From Pelagibacterium limicola (GTDB lineage Bacteria > Pseudomonadota > Alphaproteobacteria > Rhizobiales > Devosiaceae): a stretch of 64,000 bases of DNA. The notes under the pieces are model-generated. The model saw only the letters and a list, made by a program, of their open reading frames with translations. It was not told where the DNA came from and searched no databases. This document shows positions 21,816 through 32,448 of the stretch, one piece after another (position 1 is the first letter of the stretch; each line of letters begins with the position of its first letter). A program made the position numbers and the translations under genes. The stretch is from NCBI RefSeq assembly GCF_015694405.1, contig NZ_JADQDB010000006.1:186001-250000 (forward strand). The letters run 5' to 3'.

Positions 21816-22694
21816 TTAGCCAATCAACCGCGAGCAGACGAGGTCGAGTTGGTCGAGCGTCTTGTAGCGGATTTCAAGTTTGCCGCCCTTGTCCTTGTGA
21901 TCGAGGGTGACAGAAAGCCCCAGCGTGTCGGAAAGCTGCTTTTCCAGCGCCAAGGTATCGGCGTCCTTGACCGCAGGCGAGCGCGGCGCCGAGGGAACCC
22001 CCTTGCGGGCTTCGGTGTCTTTCTGGTGCAGTGCTTCGGCCTCGCGGACCGAAAGACCAGCCGAAACGATGCGATGCGCCAGGCCGAGCGGGTCTTCCGA
22101 AGTAATGAGGGTGCGGGCGTGACCCGCCGTCAATTCACCGCGCTCGAGCATGGACTGCACTTCGGCTGGCAGTTTCAAAAGCCGCAGTGTGTTCGCGACA
22201 TGGGAGCGCGACTTGCCGATGACCTGCGCAAGATCCTGCTGCGTGTATTCGAACTGTTCGATCAGCTGCCCGTAACCCTGCGCCTCTTCGAGCGGGTTAA
22301 GGTCGGCGCGCTGGACGTTTTCGATAATGGCTAGCTCGAGCGCTTCCTTATCATCCACCTCGCGGACGATGACCGGAACTTCATGCAAGCCGGCGCGCTG
22401 TGCGGCTCGCCACCGCCGCTCGCCCGCAATAATCTCGAACACATCGGGCCCTTGATCGCTCGGTCGCACCAGAAGCGGCTGCATCACGCCTTTTTCGCGA
22501 ATCGAATTGGTGAGATCCTCGAGAAGCTCGGGATCGAAACCCTTGCGCGGATTGGCCCGGCTCGCGATGATGAATTCGACCGGCAGGCGGCGCACGCCCG
22601 AACCGGTATCGGCCTGCCGCGGCGCGTCGACTGGGGTCATGTCGCCGATAAGCGCGGCGAGACCGCGACCGAGACGCGAGGGTTTATCGTTCAT
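21816..22694 (-). CDS. parB: Chromosome-partitioning protein ParB
   Basis: A 292-residue ParB/Noc-type CTPase clamp that loads at parS and spreads. N-terminal RLGRGLAALIGD is the usual ParA-stimulating leader. The CTP-binding GERRWRAAQRAGL box (near residues 95-107) and the HTH segment QQDLAQVIGKSRSHVANTLR are clear, and the C-terminus is the dimerisation region. ATG 22694 is chosen because GGAGAG lies 8 nt upstream; ATG 22709 would overlap the parA stop. Acts on the parS sites in this window to segregate the origin. Confidence 0.96.
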   Translation of the reverse strand: MNDKPSRLGRGLAALIGDMTPVDAPRQADTGSGVRRLPVEFIIASRANPRKGFDPELLEDLTNSIREKGVMQPLLVRPSDQGPDVFEIIAGERRWRAAQRAGLHEVPVIVREVDDKEALELAIIENVQRADLNPLEEAQGYGQLIEQFEYTQQDLAQVIGKSRSHVANTLRLLKLPAEVQSMLERGELTAGHARTLITSEDPLGLAHRIVSAGLSVREAEALHQKDTEARKGVPSAPRSPAVKDADTLALEKQLSDTLGLSVTLDHKDKGGKLEIRYKTLDQLDLVCSRLIG

Positions 22695-22705
22695 GGTACT
22701 CTCCA

Positions 22706-23506
22706 TCATGCGGCCCGCAGCTGCCGCTCACGCTTGATGACCTCGGTGGCCAGCCGCAGATAAGCTTGGCTACCAGCGCATTTGAGATCATAAAGCAGAG
22801 CTGGCTTGCCATAGCTCGGCGCCTCGCTCAAGCGCACATTGCGCGGGATGACCGTGTCGTAGACAAGCCCGCCCATATGCTCGCGCACATCGCTCAGAAC
22901 TTGCTCCGAAAGATTGTTGCGCTTGTCGTACATGGTCATCACCACGCCCTGGATCGAAAGCGCGGGATTGAGCGTGGAGCGAATTTGCTCAATTGTTTGA
23001 AGCAGTTGGCTTAAACCCTCAAGAGCAAAGAACTCGCACTGCAACGGCACCAGCACAGCATGAGCAGCCGTGAGGGCATTGATCGTCAGAAGGTTGAGCG
23101 AAGGTGGGCAATCGACCAGCACATAGGTCACGGGCTTACCGTCGATCAAAACCTCTCCGACGTTCCGCAGAGCCTCACGTAACCGGAAAGCGCGGTCGCG
23201 TTCGGTGGCAATGGTCAATTCCACGCCAAGAAGGTCCATCGTCGAGGGGACGACCGCCACATTGGGTACGCTGGTTGCCACAGTGGCATCGGCCACGCTC
23301 GCCTCACCCAATAGCAAATCATACGAGGAACGCTCGCGCTGTTGCCGCGACAGACCTAGTCCCGTCGAAGCATTGCCTTGCGGGTCGAGATCTACGATCA
23401 GCACACGCTCTCCGATCGCCGCAAGCGCAGTAGCGAGATTGATCGCGGTCGTCGTCTTGCCGACGCCGCCCTTTTGATTGGCAAGGGTTAATATACGCGG
23501 ATGCAT
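22706..23506 (-). CDS. parA: Chromosome-partitioning ATPase ParA
   Basis: A 266-residue deviant-Walker ATPase that moves ParB-parS complexes. KGGVGKTTT (residues 12-20) is the deviant P-loop with the signature lysine; LIVDLDPQGNAST and VLVDCPPSLNLLTINAL are the other nucleotide-site motifs. The start is ATG 23506, preceded by GGAGG. Overlaps parB by a few bases in one operon with rsmG and mnmG upstream, the classic origin-proximal order. Confidence 0.96.
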   Translation of the reverse strand: MHPRILTLANQKGGVGKTTTAINLATALAAIGERVLIVDLDPQGNASTGLGLSRQQRERSSYDLLLGEASVADATVATSVPNVAVVPSTMDLLGVELTIATERDRAFRLREALRNVGEVLIDGKPVTYVLVDCPPSLNLLTINALTAAHAVLVPLQCEFFALEGLSQLLQTIEQIRSTLNPALSIQGVVMTMYDKRNNLSEQVLSDVREHMGGLVYDTVIPRNVRLSEAPSYGKPALLYDLKCAGSQAYLRLATEVIKRERQLRAA

Positions 23507-23539
23507 GTGGCCTCCGGCCCCGATGGGGCCCATTCCAGA

Positions 23540-24208
23540 TCACGCGATCCGCTCAAGGCTCGAAATCTCGAGAATTACACCCTGGGGATCGACTATACTT
23601 TGATGCTTTACCACAGCCGTGCGCCAGACTGAATCCGCCTCACGCATTTCTTCACCATATTCCCGCCCCTTATGCAGAAAAGCCGTTGTGCCTGGCTGCC
23701 AGAAATGAGCGAGATAGCCGAAAAGCATAGGCAAACCGGCCAATGCACGCGCTGTAAGCACGTGAACGGCGCCCATTTCAGCAATGTCGACCTCTTCGAT
23801 CCGTTGGGCGTGAACGGTCGCGGGAAGCCCAAGCTCGCGGACGATGGCCTTCAAAAACGCACATTTGCGGGTGCGGGACTCGATCAAATGGAGGTGAACA
23901 GGGCGGTTCTTGAGAGCAATTGCCAAAGGCAAGGCGGGAAATCCGCCACCAGAGCCGATATCCACGATCCTGGCCGGCGTTTGCGCCGCGATATGGGCCT
24001 CGATTAGCGGCAAGAGCTGGAGCGAATCGAGAATGTGCCGTTCCCACAGCGCGCCCACTGTTTCACGTGAAACGAGATTCTGCATGTGCTGCCATTTTTC
24101 GAGGCTGGCGCAAAACCGTTCCAGATCGGCTTGAACCTCCGCCTGCCTACGCCCGAAACTTGTGGCGAAGGGGGCGAGTGACCCTGTTTTGTCGGCTAGG
24201 ATGGTCAC
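23540..24208 (-). CDS. rsmG: 16S rRNA m7G527 methyltransferase RsmG (GidB)
   Basis: A 222-residue SAM-dependent methyltransferase that modifies G527 of 16S rRNA. Motif I is [16 protein letters not shown] (about 92-107) and [13 protein letters not shown] follows. The conserved NLVSRET segment is encoded by a parS sequence (24059-24074), as in many bacteria. Start overlaps the mnmG stop (ATGA), so the genes are translationally coupled. Confidence 0.95.
24059..24074. promoter_or_regulatory. parS site inside rsmG
   Basis: TGTTTCACGTGAAACG matches the parS consensus at 15 of 16 positions, the best match in the window. It encodes VSRET of RsmG. It lies 0.5 kb from parA. Confidence 0.88.
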
Positions 24209-28902: not shown

Positions 28903-29076
28903 GATCAGCCTTTGGAGGGATTAAGAGGACAAGAGATTAAGGGGAAAAGGCGCGGGTGTTCGCCGCTTGAGGTCACAACGAATGCGTGAGTTGGCGACTC
29001 CATAAACCATTCACGGGGGCGATTGCAAGCATAACCATCTTAAATGCCAACGGCCCACGATCCATATCGCGTCCGG

Positions 29077-29511
29077 TCAAAACGGCTTGACGATCACGGC
29101 CACCACAATGACGATCATCAGCACCGTCGGAATCTCGTTGATGGCCCGGAAATAGCGCGCCGAATTCGTATTCCTGTCCGCGGCAAAAGCCTTCTGGTGG
29201 CGGGTAAGGACGCCGTGGAACCCCGAAAGCGCGATGACGAAAACCGCCTTGAGCCACATCCAGCCCTGCGAAAAGTCGACCACCCCGAAGTAAAAGGCCA
29301 GCGTGAGCCCGAAGATCCAGCTTGCGATCATTGCCGGAGTGGTTATGCCTTTAAGAAGCCGCCGCTCCATGACCTTGAAGGTCTCGGACATTTCGGACCC
29401 CGGCGCGGCATCGGCGTGATAGACGAAAAGCCGCGGCAAATAGAGCGACCCGGCCATCCAGGCAATGACCGAGATGACATGCGCCGAAAGCGTGATGGCG
29501 TACCAGTTCAT
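29077..29511 (-). CDS. hemJ: Protoporphyrinogen oxidase HemJ
   Basis: A 144-residue inner-membrane protein of the HemJ (UPF0093) family, converting protoporphyrinogen IX to protoporphyrin IX. Four hydrophobic helices are visible. Conserved residues include the His in SAHVISVIAWMAGSLYLPRLFVYH and the lysine in GWMWLKAVFVI. Its start overlaps the hemE stop (ATGA), coupling two steps of haem synthesis. Confidence 0.93.
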   Translation of the reverse strand: MNWYAITLSAHVISVIAWMAGSLYLPRLFVYHADAAPGSEMSETFKVMERRLLKGITTPAMIASWIFGLTLAFYFGVVDFSQGWMWLKAVFVIALSGFHGVLTRHQKAFAADRNTNSARYFRAINEIPTVLMIVIVVAVIVKPF

Positions 29512-30545
29512 TGTTTTACGATCTCAATGAGGCGGGCGACGTTTTCGATAGGCGTCTGCGGCACGATGCCGTGTCCGAGATTGAAAATATGCGGGCGATT
29601 GGAAAAGGCCTCGACGATCTCTTGGGCGCGCGCCTCCATCTGCGGACCCCCGGCAACAAGCCGCAGCGGATCGAGATTGCCTTGAACCGCAAACTGCGCC
29701 GGCAATACGCTGTCGGCAAAAGCAAGCGGGGTGGCGTAATCGAGACCGATAACGTTAACCCCCGTCTCCCTTGCGTAACGGCCGATCAGGCCGGCCGCAC
29801 CGCGCGGAAATCCGGTGATCACCGCATCGGGTACCGCGGCCCGCACCTTCTCGACCAGAGCCTTGTTGGGGGCGAGCACATAGGTTTCAAAAGCCAGTTC
29901 ATCGAGATTGAGGGCCCAGCTTTCAAATATCTGCACCATATCGGCGCCCGCCGAGAGCTGAGCGATGAGATAATCGGCAGAGACATCGACGAGGAGCGTC
30001 ATCAACCGAGCGAAAGCATCGGGATATTGTAGCGCGAAAAGCCGTGCTGCCGCTTGATCGGACGAGCCCCTGCCCCCGATCATATAAGTCGCCACTGTCC
30101 AAGGGGCCCCGCAGAAACCGATAAGCGTTTTTTCGGGCGCGAGCGCGGACTTGATTCGTCCAAGCGTTTCAAAGACCGGGGCGAGATTTGCCATTGCCAT
30201 ATCCGGGTCGAGCCGCCCGAGCGTATCCGTGGTTATCGGTTCGAGCACCGGCCCTTCTCCCGTTTCAAAGCGAACCGATTGGCCCAGCGCATCGGGAATG
30301 ACGAGGATATCGGAAAAAAGGATTGCTGCGTCCAGATCGAAGCGCCGCAGGGGTTGCAGTGTTACCTCCGTTGCGAGTTCTGGCGCATAGCAAAGATCGA
30401 GAAAGCTTCCGGCCTTTTCTCGGACCTGCCTGTACTCGGGGAGATATCGCCCGGCCTGGCGCATGATCCAGACGGGCGGCCTGGCCTGGCGGATGCCGCG
30501 GGCGGTATCGAGCAATGGTTTTCCGGTTGGGTCTGGGCTGGTCAT
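29508..30545 (-). CDS. hemE: Uroporphyrinogen decarboxylase
   Basis: A 345-residue decarboxylase that converts uroporphyrinogen III to coproporphyrinogen III. Signatures PPVWIMRQAGRYLPEYR (with the catalytic arginines) and GFCGAPWTVATYMI are present. ATG 30545 is chosen because AGGGAG lies 7 nt upstream and the protein then matches family length; an in-frame reading back to 30659 adds a lysine-rich leader with no homology and enters the origin region. hemE adjacent to the origin is a hallmark of alphaproteobacterial chromosomes such as Caulobacter. Confidence 0.96.
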   Translation of the reverse strand: MTSPDPTGKPLLDTARGIRQARPPVWIMRQAGRYLPEYRQVREKAGSFLDLCYAPELATEVTLQPLRRFDLDAAILFSDILVIPDALGQSVRFETGEGPVLEPITTDTLGRLDPDMAMANLAPVFETLGRIKSALAPEKTLIGFCGAPWTVATYMIGGRGSSDQAAARLFALQYPDAFARLMTLLVDVSADYLIAQLSAGADMVQIFESWALNLDELAFETYVLAPNKALVEKVRAAVPDAVITGFPRGAAGLIGRYARETGVNVIGLDYATPLAFADSVLPAQFAVQGNLDPLRLVAGGPQMEARAQEIVEAFSNRPHIFNLGHGIVPQTPIENVARLIEIVKQ

Positions 30546-30760
30546 TTGCTCCCTTGCGGGCAATGCACCGGGCTGGCGGTGATCGTCCTTAGAAAGACTC
30601 TCTAAAAGAGTCTGTTTCTTCTTCTTGTCTGTGTTTTGCACCAATTGCGCCAAGCCCACAACCGGAGGGCTTGAGACGGCTGCTGCGGCATGGTGCCCCG
30701 CTCACCTCTGGGGATATGGCCGGCCGACCTACGACGAAAAACGCGCCAAACAACCGTTCT

Positions 30761-30775
30761 TTAAGGTTTTGTTAA
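30761..30775. promoter_or_regulatory. CtrA box 1 in oriC
   Basis: TTAAGGTTTTGTTAA is an exact TTAA-N7-TTAA, the full CtrA-binding consensus. In Caulobacter phosphorylated CtrA bound at the origin blocks DnaA-driven initiation. Confidence 0.85.
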
Positions 30776-30796
30776 CCTTTGGGCCTGTGAATTCCT

Positions 30797-30811
30797 TTAA
30801 CATTTCGTTAA
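30797..30811. promoter_or_regulatory. CtrA box 2 in oriC
   Basis: TTAACATTTCGTTAA is an exact TTAA-N7-TTAA, 36 bp after box 1 in start-to-start distance, so on a similar helix face. Like boxes 1 and 3 it ends in GTTAACC. Confidence 0.85.
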
Positions 30812-30879
30812 CCTCAATGCCGGCATCACCCGATGCGTTTTCCCCGCTATTGTCACCAGCCCTGATTCCGGCCCACAGC

Positions 30880-30894
30880 TTAACCATCTGTTAA
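30880..30894. promoter_or_regulatory. CtrA box 3 in oriC
   Basis: TTAACCATCTGTTAA is an exact TTAA-N7-TTAA, 83 bp after box 2. It sits just before the second TGGGGATAT copy. Confidence 0.85.
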
Positions 30895-30970
30895 CCAAAT
30901 CTGGCTTGATGGGGATATTTCCGCCCTAGGGATGCGATTGCCGTCCTATCGCTTTCCTTGTGGGCACCGA

Positions 30971-30979
30971 TGTGGAAAA
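30971..30979 (-). promoter_or_regulatory. DnaA box in oriC
   Basis: On the minus strand TTTTCCACA fits the DnaA consensus TTWTNCACA at every position. It is the only full match I see in the region; DnaA boxes in alphaproteobacterial origins are often degenerate. Confidence 0.65.
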
Positions 30980-31012
30980 ACCGTCGCGAGAATCCCGCGA
31001 CAAGGCCTTTCC

Positions 31013-31621
31013 ATGCTGATCCTGGCGTCCAATAGCCCAACGCGCAAAACCCTGCTCGAAGCTGTGGGTATGCCATTTTCGGTCATCACGGCGCCCATCG
31101 ACGAGCGTGCAATCGAGCACGGGTTAACGAGAGAAGGCGCAACCAAGGCGCAGATCGCGCTAGCGCTTGCCAAAGCCAAGGCCCTCGCCGTCAGCTCCGC
31201 CCGGCTCGATGCGATTGTTATCGGCGCCGACCAGACGCTCTCCTGCGGCGCGCTGGACATCCACAAGCCCGATTCACGTGAAACGGCAAAACGGCAACTG
31301 CTCTCCCTGGCCGGAAAGACCCATCAACTGCACGCGGCTGCAGCGCTGGCAAAAAACGGAGAAATCCTGTGGTCGACGGTCGACAGCGTCGAGTTGTCCA
31401 TGCGTGAAATATCGGATGCCGAACTCGATGCCATACTCGACCTCGAGGGAGAGGCAATATTGTCCTCGGTCGGTGGATATCGGCTCGAAGGCCCGTCGGT
31501 GCGGCTTTTCCAAAGCGTGAGGGGTGATTATTTCACGGTCCTGGGCCTGCCTCTCTTGCCCCTGCTCTCCGGCCTGCGCCAGATTGCACCCGAACTCTTC
31601 TTGCCTGCGATGCCCCAATGA
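31013..31621 (+). CDS. maf: Maf-family nucleotide pyrophosphatase
   Basis: A 202-residue house-cleaning pyrophosphatase that hydrolyses modified or non-canonical nucleoside triphosphates. The signature MLILASNSPTRKTLLE at the N-terminus and GADQTLSCGALDIHKP (about residues 63-78) are typical. ATG 31013 begins the family motif, with AAGG upstream; a longer in-frame leader lies in oriC and is not family-like. First gene of the rightward arm, coupled to aroE by ATGA overlap. Confidence 0.93.
   Translation: MLILASNSPTRKTLLEAVGMPFSVITAPIDERAIEHGLTREGATKAQIALALAKAKALAVSSARLDAIVIGADQTLSCGALDIHKPDSRETAKRQLLSLAGKTHQLHAAAALAKNGEILWSTVDSVELSMREISDAELDAILDLEGEAILSSVGGYRLEGPSVRLFQSVRGDYFTVLGLPLLPLLSGLRQIAPELFLPAMPQ
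31270..31285. promoter_or_regulatory. parS-like site inside maf
   Basis: CGATTCACGTGAAACG matches parS at 13 of 16 positions and, read on the other strand, resembles the intergenic copies at 26144 and 26180. It encodes DSRET using serine TCA, a codon little used in nearby genes. Confidence 0.55.
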
Positions 31622-32448
31622 CCAGAAAAGCCTTCGTCATCGGCCACCCAATCGGCCACTCCAAATCGCCGCTGATCCACGGCAGCTGGCTTCGCGATTA
31701 CGGGATCGACGGCACCTACGAAGCCATCGACATCGCCCCCGAAGCCTTGCCCGAATTCATCGACCGCCTGCGCGAGGGAGAATTTGCGGGAGGCAATGCC
31801 ACCATCCCGCACAAGGAAGCCTTATTGGGACATTGTGACGCGGTCGATCCGCTCGCTAAAGACATCGGCGCCGTCAACACCCTCGAAATGAGGGGCGGGA
31901 AAATCCTCGGATCGAATACCGACTATCTCGGTTTCCTCGCCAATCTCGATGCCAATGCGCCGGGGTGGGACGCCGGGCTAAAAACCGCGATCGTTCTTGG
32001 GGCAGGGGGCGCGGCTCGCGCGATTCTCGCGGCCCTGCGGGCGCGAAACATCCCCCGGGTTCTCGTCCTCAATCGCGGTCTTGCGCGTGCGCGCAACCTT
32101 GCCGACCATTTCGGGTCGAGCATCGTGCCGGCGCGGCTCGCCGATTTTTCCGCGCTGGCGCCTGACGCCGGGCTGGTTGTCAACACCAGTTCGGTTGGCA
32201 TGGGCGGCTCACGCTTTGAAGGTCTCGACCTTGCGGTGTTGCCCGCCGGGGCGGTGGTCAACGACATCGTTTATACCCCCCTTGTCACCCCGCTCCTTGC
32301 CGATGCAGCAACGCTTGGCTTGCGGGTTGTCGACGGGCTGGGCATGCTGCTCCATCAGGCAGTGCCCGGTTTTGCGGCCTGGTTCGGGGTGACCCCCGCC
32401 GTCACGCCTGCATTGCGGGAGCGCGTTCTTCAGGCGATGGGACAATGA
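31618..32448 (+). CDS. aroE: Shikimate dehydrogenase
   Basis: A 276-residue NADPH enzyme reducing 3-dehydroshikimate in aromatic amino-acid synthesis. The substrate site GHPIGHSKSPLIHGSWL is at the N-terminus, with the catalytic NATIPHKEALL following and the GAGGAARAILAAL dinucleotide motif near residue 127. Coupled by 4-bp overlaps to maf and coaE; the maf-aroE-coaE-dnaQ run is the standard right arm next to the alphaproteobacterial origin. Confidence 0.95.
   Translation: MTRKAFVIGHPIGHSKSPLIHGSWLRDYGIDGTYEAIDIAPEALPEFIDRLREGEFAGGNATIPHKEALLGHCDAVDPLAKDIGAVNTLEMRGGKILGSNTDYLGFLANLDANAPGWDAGLKTAIVLGAGGAARAILAALRARNIPRVLVLNRGLARARNLADHFGSSIVPARLADFSALAPDAGLVVNTSSVGMGGSRFEGLDLAVLPAGAVVNDIVYTPLVTPLLADAATLGLRVVDGLGMLLHQAVPGFAAWFGVTPAVTPALRERVLQAMGQ

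Follow-up and report, generated by a model that had tools for sequence, protein, structure and literature searches.

A probable Caulobacter-type replication origin with conserved CtrA boxes between hemE and maf in a Devosiaceae genome

The hemE-maf gap and its sequence elements

The window, i.e. the whole stretch of DNA analyzed here, comprises 64 kb (G000:C8:186001-250000) of a genome of 3,472,577 bases (3.47 Mb) in 13 contigs. We take the family of this genome (f1) to be Devosiaceae, with which the names Devosia, Pelagibacterium and Cucumibacter among the best HemE hits agree. The closest named HemE was that of Pelagibacterium sediminicola (84% identity), among the best 80 of 299 named loci; these 80 loci were used for orientation and examples and stand outside the survey counts given below, although some belong to the same species as counted ones. 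The locus of interest is an intergenic gap at C8:216546-217012, which has parB, a parA-like gene, gidB, gidA, trmE, rho and hemE on its left and a maf-like gene, aroE and coaE on its right. As a first-pass annotation of this DNA had noticed, gene polarity flips outward at the gap (hemE is read leftward, and the maf-like gene, aroE and coaE rightward). The limits it gave, 30546-31012, were also correct: the coding part of hemE was read at 29511-30545 and the ATG of the maf-like gene at 31013. The features of the locus are as follows (window positions).

21816-22709, minus strand: parB (TIGR00180 above cut-off)
22706-23533, minus strand: parA-like gene (ParA/MinD-type ATPase models, below cut-off)
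24059..24074, no strand: best parS-like site, one mismatch
Starts 21789, 26144, 26180, 41738, 62953 and 72140 (the last outside the window): six further parS-like places, two mismatches
29077-29511: short hemJ-like gene, named by resemblance only
29511..30545, minus strand: hemE, uroporphyrinogen decarboxylase (TIGR01464 above cut-off)
30546..31012, no strand: hemE-maf gap, proposed oriC, from gene order and conserved CtrA, DnaA and GANTC words
30595..30613, no strand: hairpin AGACTCTCTAAAAGAGTCT, an inverted repeat holding two GANTC sites (30596-30600 and 30608-30612)
30614..30661, no strand: Devosiaceae-specific module of T-rich tract, TGTGTTTTG (30630-30638), AATT and CCACAA (30656-30661)
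30709..30717, minus strand: second copy of TGGGGATAT, position not conserved in the genus
30761..30775, plus strand: CtrA box 1, TTAAGGTTTTGTTAA, exact consensus, in register in the genus alignment
30797..30811, plus strand: CtrA box 2, TTAACATTTCGTTAA, exact consensus, in register in the genus alignment
30838..30846, plus strand: DnaA-like word TTTTCCCCG, one mismatch from TTWTCCMCA, column conserved in the genus
30850..30858, plus strand: degenerate DnaA-like word TTGTCACCA, from the genus alignment, TTGTCCACA or TTGTCCCCA in some relatives
30880..30894, plus strand: CtrA box 3, TTAACCATCTGTTAA, exact consensus, also read in the genus alignment
30910..30918, minus strand: TGGGGATAT (reverse ATATCCCCA), variant DnaA-like word, GGGGA column largely conserved in the genus
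30971..30979, minus strand: DnaA box TGTGGAAAA (reverse TTTTCCACA), one mismatch from TTATCCACA, TGTG(A/G)A conserved in the genus
31013..31621, plus strand: maf-like gene, ATG at 31013 (best NCBIfam matches Maf-like, below curated cut-off)

All three exact TTAA-N7-TTAA boxes that had been reported, at 30761, 30797 and 30880, were recovered. Four such words were observed in the 64 kb versus a mean of 0.09 in 100 shuffles, none of which reached 4, and the whole genome contains 26 such places, three of them inside a span of 134 bp in the gap. Along the gap, the order of elements is CtrA, CtrA, two DnaA-like words, CtrA, DnaA-like and DnaA. The 12 gaps aligned for the genus are mostly diverged, with islands of identity at the boxes, at the GANTC sites, at a T-rich tract with a CTGTGTTTTGCACCAATT-like word after it, at CCACAA and at the DnaA-like words; CtrA box 3 is exact in four of these 12 gaps (our own, L114, L118 and L124). 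GTTAACC does end all three boxes, as the first-pass annotation had stated, but the species-specific CtrA preference it read from this did not stand: the nearest relative (L114) also has GTTAACC in all three boxes, and it is found in only 13 of the 47 distinct Devosiaceae origin boxes, of which 33 have C after the second TTAA and 33 have G before it. We take GTTAACC as an ordinary preference that carries no species mark. Elsewhere in the genome, outside the window, two exact TTAA-N7-TTAA boxes whose starts are 17 bp apart (G000:C7:307358-307389; L013 and L014) form a candidate CtrA-controlled promoter.

The DnaA box noticed earlier is present at 30971-30979 and near-consensus (one mismatch from TTATCCACA), and both TGGGGATAT copies were found again at 30709 and 30910. 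One word of the gap is within one mismatch of TTATCCACA, and four are counted by a relaxed DnaA word. As to the hairpin, the stem at 30595-30613 exists, but it is not kept as such: two GANTC sites persist in 11 of 13 genus gaps, with a stem that is not always perfect. An RNA structure at this place was considered and rejected, its stability being not clearly above that of shuffles (z -1.41 on the plus and -0.89 on the minus strand). A second terminator-like stem of 10 pairs, on the minus strand and with GANTC near its middle, is located at 30981-31003, just after the DnaA box. The IHF word WATCAANNNNTTR, the one consensus searched, occurred once in 32 Devosiaceae stretches versus 0.5 expected and was absent from our own gap; an IHF site is not required for the functional claim made below. 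A search of 29000-32000 against Rfam gave two matches whose scores fell far short of the gathering score.

The genome encodes a CtrA with 83% identity to Caulobacter CtrA, and over the DNA-binding stretch, HLTGKEYQ to CKLRKKL, the two proteins agree letter for letter. Families of the CtrA network that are present include ChpT (PF10090), GcrA (PF07750, two proteins) and PF07323, which we take to be the RcdA family.

Conservation in Devosiaceae and other Hyphomicrobiales

The Devosiaceae sample contained 37 genomes, 33 of which had a HemE match and 32 of which were used (G019, with a split hemE, was left out). Loss of the boxes in close relatives had been named beforehand as an outcome that would refute the origin proposal. 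Exact CtrA boxes, 51 in total, were found within 500 bp upstream of hemE in 29 of the 32 genomes, while each of eight control spacings occurred in 0-1 of 32; the three genomes with no exact box in these 500 bp are L131, L139 and L140. Word enrichment was calculated in 450 bp upstream of hemE in the 32 Devosiaceae versus shuffles of the same stretches, and gave 51 versus 0.2 for CtrA boxes, 53 versus 2.3 for the DnaA word (at most one mismatch), 58 versus 5.4 for TCCACA, 57 versus 11.2 for TCCCCA and 115 versus 45.5 for GANTC, with no enrichment of permuted control words in these stretches. That the boxes arose by chance from the higher A+T content of the gap is a negligible prospect: our own gap does have a GC content of 0.54 versus about 0.60-0.65 over most of the window, but the shuffles and control spacings above retain almost no boxes. 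At least one GANTC is present in the first 110 bp in 32/32 Devosiaceae and at least two in 22/32.

The right-hand neighbor is less constant. In four Devosiaceae (L127, L134, L137 and L166), aroE directly follows the gap, about 485-540 bp from hemE, and no maf match was found in the 1.5 kb read beside it; one or two CtrA boxes are kept in these genomes despite the replacement of maf by aroE. No box was found past 500 bp from hemE in 115 genomes (at least 1.2 kb read in 114 of them).

A further element on the hemE side appears to be restricted to this family. The module, with its T-rich tract and [GT]GTGTTTTG-like word, was found in 28/32 Devosiaceae by a loose pattern and in 23/32 by the strict word, and CACAA follows in identical register in 27 of the 28; the strict word was present in 0/84 other Hyphomicrobiales and 0/28 families of other orders. 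In our own gap, the most A+T-rich 40 bp begin at 30589, at the gap edge. We propose that the module (30614-30661) is the unwinding side of the origin; alternatively, it might act as an unusual kind of hemE promoter. An assignment to DnaA-trio repeats was rejected since the triplet order, judged by eye, did not fit.

For other Hyphomicrobiales, 84 of 115 genomes with a HemE match were read and 83 counted (L162 offered 21 bp of upstream DNA), with the repeat loci L259, L274, L277 and L278 left out. The 84 genomes consist of 22 taken one per family, 21 best HemE matches plus one more, 20 mostly taken one per further family, and 20 later picks. An exact box was found within 500 bp upstream of hemE in 29/83 genomes and 16/46 families, counting exact boxes only, so that a genome scored as negative may still carry imperfect ones. 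Sampling was non-random: the last 20 picks were made once some of their families were known to be positive and others negative, and 16/46 families is therefore a safer figure than 29/83 genomes. Other spacings were found in 0-4 of the 83 genomes. Divided by GC content, boxes were present in 21/64 genomes at or above 0.45 (versus 0-2 for other spacings) and in 8/19 below 0.45 (versus 0-2). The presence or absence of boxes agrees within families beyond chance (6 discordant members, whereas permutations averaged 13.8 and only 5 of 20000 gave so low a value). Outside Hyphomicrobiales, where the best HemE matches of 28 out of 91 matched families were read, 3/28 families had an exact box. For the majority of the other sampled families, about 1.2-1.5 kb separate hemE from the start of the maf match, a distance that leaves room for the COG1806/RP001 gene which occupies this position in Caulobacter (PMC1914354).

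Proposed origin function and alternative explanations

The gap lies beside hemE and close to parAB and parS, as is typical of a Caulobacter-type oriC. All seven parS-like places found in the genome (at most two mismatches) fall within C8:207789-258155, about -9 to +41 kb from the gap, and a reversed parS control had no match in the genome; parS-like sites are also near the gap in two relatives, among the regions read. With a relaxed DnaA word, which was picked after viewing the alignment, the gap is the densest place in three regions of 326-448 kb (4 versus 3, 5 versus 3 and 5 versus 4). With the strict TTATCCACA (at most one mismatch), only in G018 does the gap come out as the top cluster; our own gap has one hit and that of G001 none.

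The first-pass annotation had expected a GC-skew minimum at 30.5-31.0 kb, which was not borne out: the cumulative skew of contig C8 reaches its lowest value 68.6 kb to the right. In C8, the polarity of GGGNAGGG, based on counts and on the stretches read, shows no switch at the gap (10006 of 20000 permutations did as well), and in G001 the sampled arms show opposite polarity. The minimum of a trained 7-mer polarity falls at +83, +179 or +246 kb, at a different distance in each of the three genomes. Its values in G001 are clearly negative left of about -40 kb; they are positive between 0 and +60 kb, and mixed beyond that as far as +280 kb. In G018, positive values are confined to about -20 to +40 kb and then give way to negative ones again, and in C8 the polarity is weak around the gap. 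Strand asymmetry can be reconciled with the gap but does not single it out. GC skew and GGGNAGGG polarity were too noisy or mixed to serve as origin locators, and were weighed against the origin reading. GC skew marks the chromosome arms poorly in G001, G018 and C8, and polarity is mixed up to about 300 kb around the G001 origin region; inversions around the origin could be one reason for this mixture.

The sequence shows sites that are enriched, conserved and independent of the right-hand gene, together with a parS/parAB neighborhood and genes for CtrA and for ChpT-, RcdA- and GcrA-family proteins. Our reading, at a probability of roughly three in four, is that the gap is oriC and that phosphorylated CtrA (CtrA~P) on three boxes alternating with DnaA-type words blocks DnaA until CtrA is dephosphorylated or degraded. 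That a Caulobacter-type origin locus with CtrA boxes is present in a Hyphomicrobiales genome (nearest named HemE, Pelagibacterium), as originally suggested, is in this respect supported by sequence. By analogy with Caulobacter, replication would start here, and CtrA~P would bind the boxes, keep DnaA away in the non-replicating state and so repress initiation. The phosphorelay and proteolysis would remove CtrA~P, whereupon DnaA could assemble and open the gap DNA, and methylation of the GANTC sites might report fork passage or replication state through CcrM.

A competing explanation also accepts the gap as the origin but assigns the boxes chiefly to the transcriptional control of hemE (or of a short gap RNA), so that any effect on initiation would be indirect. 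hemE is the neighbor throughout our survey, although it was also the search query, so this feature does not separate the two readings; the module at 30614-30661 could serve as a hemE promoter; and Caulobacter hemE transcription is reported to be tied to replication and repressible by CtrA (PMC8959179). The alternation of the boxes with DnaA-like words and the lack of a sigma-70-type promoter match in 30500-31050 argue against it, and we consider it unlikely. Less probable still, and by a good deal, is that the boxes regulate maf and that the origin is elsewhere in the region, e.g. closer to dnaA, which a dnaA motif puts at about +55 kb, or at the skew minimum. The skew and polarity minima to the right of the gap would suit such an arrangement, but they lie at different distances in the three genomes, and nowhere else in the three regions does the relaxed DnaA word cluster more densely than in the gap. 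A maf promoter is rated low because boxes remain in the four genomes where aroE has taken the place of maf.

A wider evolutionary scenario is possible, and we offer it tentatively, as something that may well prove wrong. Direct CtrA control of the origin may be patchy but common in Hyphomicrobiales, with individual families retaining or regaining it and Devosiaceae having it almost fixed; Sinorhizobium meliloti and Brucella would then represent loss and not the rule of the order; at the same time, Devosiaceae may have evolved their own module (GANTC, T-rich tract, KGTGTTTTG, AATT and CACAA in fixed register) as the unwinding side.

Comparison with known origins

In Caulobacter, the textbook case, it is CtrA gating of the origin that ties DNA replication to cell fate. 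What is new here is the family comparison of origin boxes across Hyphomicrobiales. Our literature search on CtrA and origins returned no title or abstract on Devosiaceae origins, within a coverage that mostly excluded subscription papers.

Among model Hyphomicrobiales, Pini et al. 2015 (PMC4433202) describe the S. meliloti origin as having no CtrA motif and not being bound, and Brilli et al. 2010 (PMC2877005) cite Brucella abortus CtrA as not binding the origin. Both organisms are like ours in belonging to this order and having CtrA, but they are reported to lack CtrA at the origin. Model species of the order are thus reported without direct CtrA gating, whereas Devosiaceae carry conserved origin boxes, and the presence of families with and without boxes in one order provides matched comparisons for gain and loss of direct CtrA control.

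More distant relatives offer further parallels. Rickettsia and Wolbachia origins were predicted from hemE and from CtrA and DnaA words, with a box number that varies among close kin, down to zero (PMC1914354); IHF words are present there, unlike here, and the boundary gene differs in Wolbachia. For Hyphomonas neptunium, PMC6650430 and PMC7200025 report that marker frequency peaks close to hemE, with parAB at a distance of about 7 kb, and that CtrA is bound beside the origin. That origin is experimental, whereas the Devosiaceae gap is known from sequence alone and is likened to it by description.

The closest model is Cori of Caulobacter crescentus, which PMC1914354 places between hemE and COG1806/RP001. 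Going by PMC1914354 and PMC8959179, the two loci share hemE as the left neighbor, several TTAA-N7-TTAA boxes among DnaA boxes, and a genome that encodes CtrA and DnaA. On the other hand, Cori contains five CtrA boxes plus an IHF site, whereas our gap has three exact boxes and IHF words are not enriched. It is abutted by maf (aroE in four relatives) in place of COG1806 and, unlike Cori, it carries a family-specific module and a GANTC pair on its hemE side.
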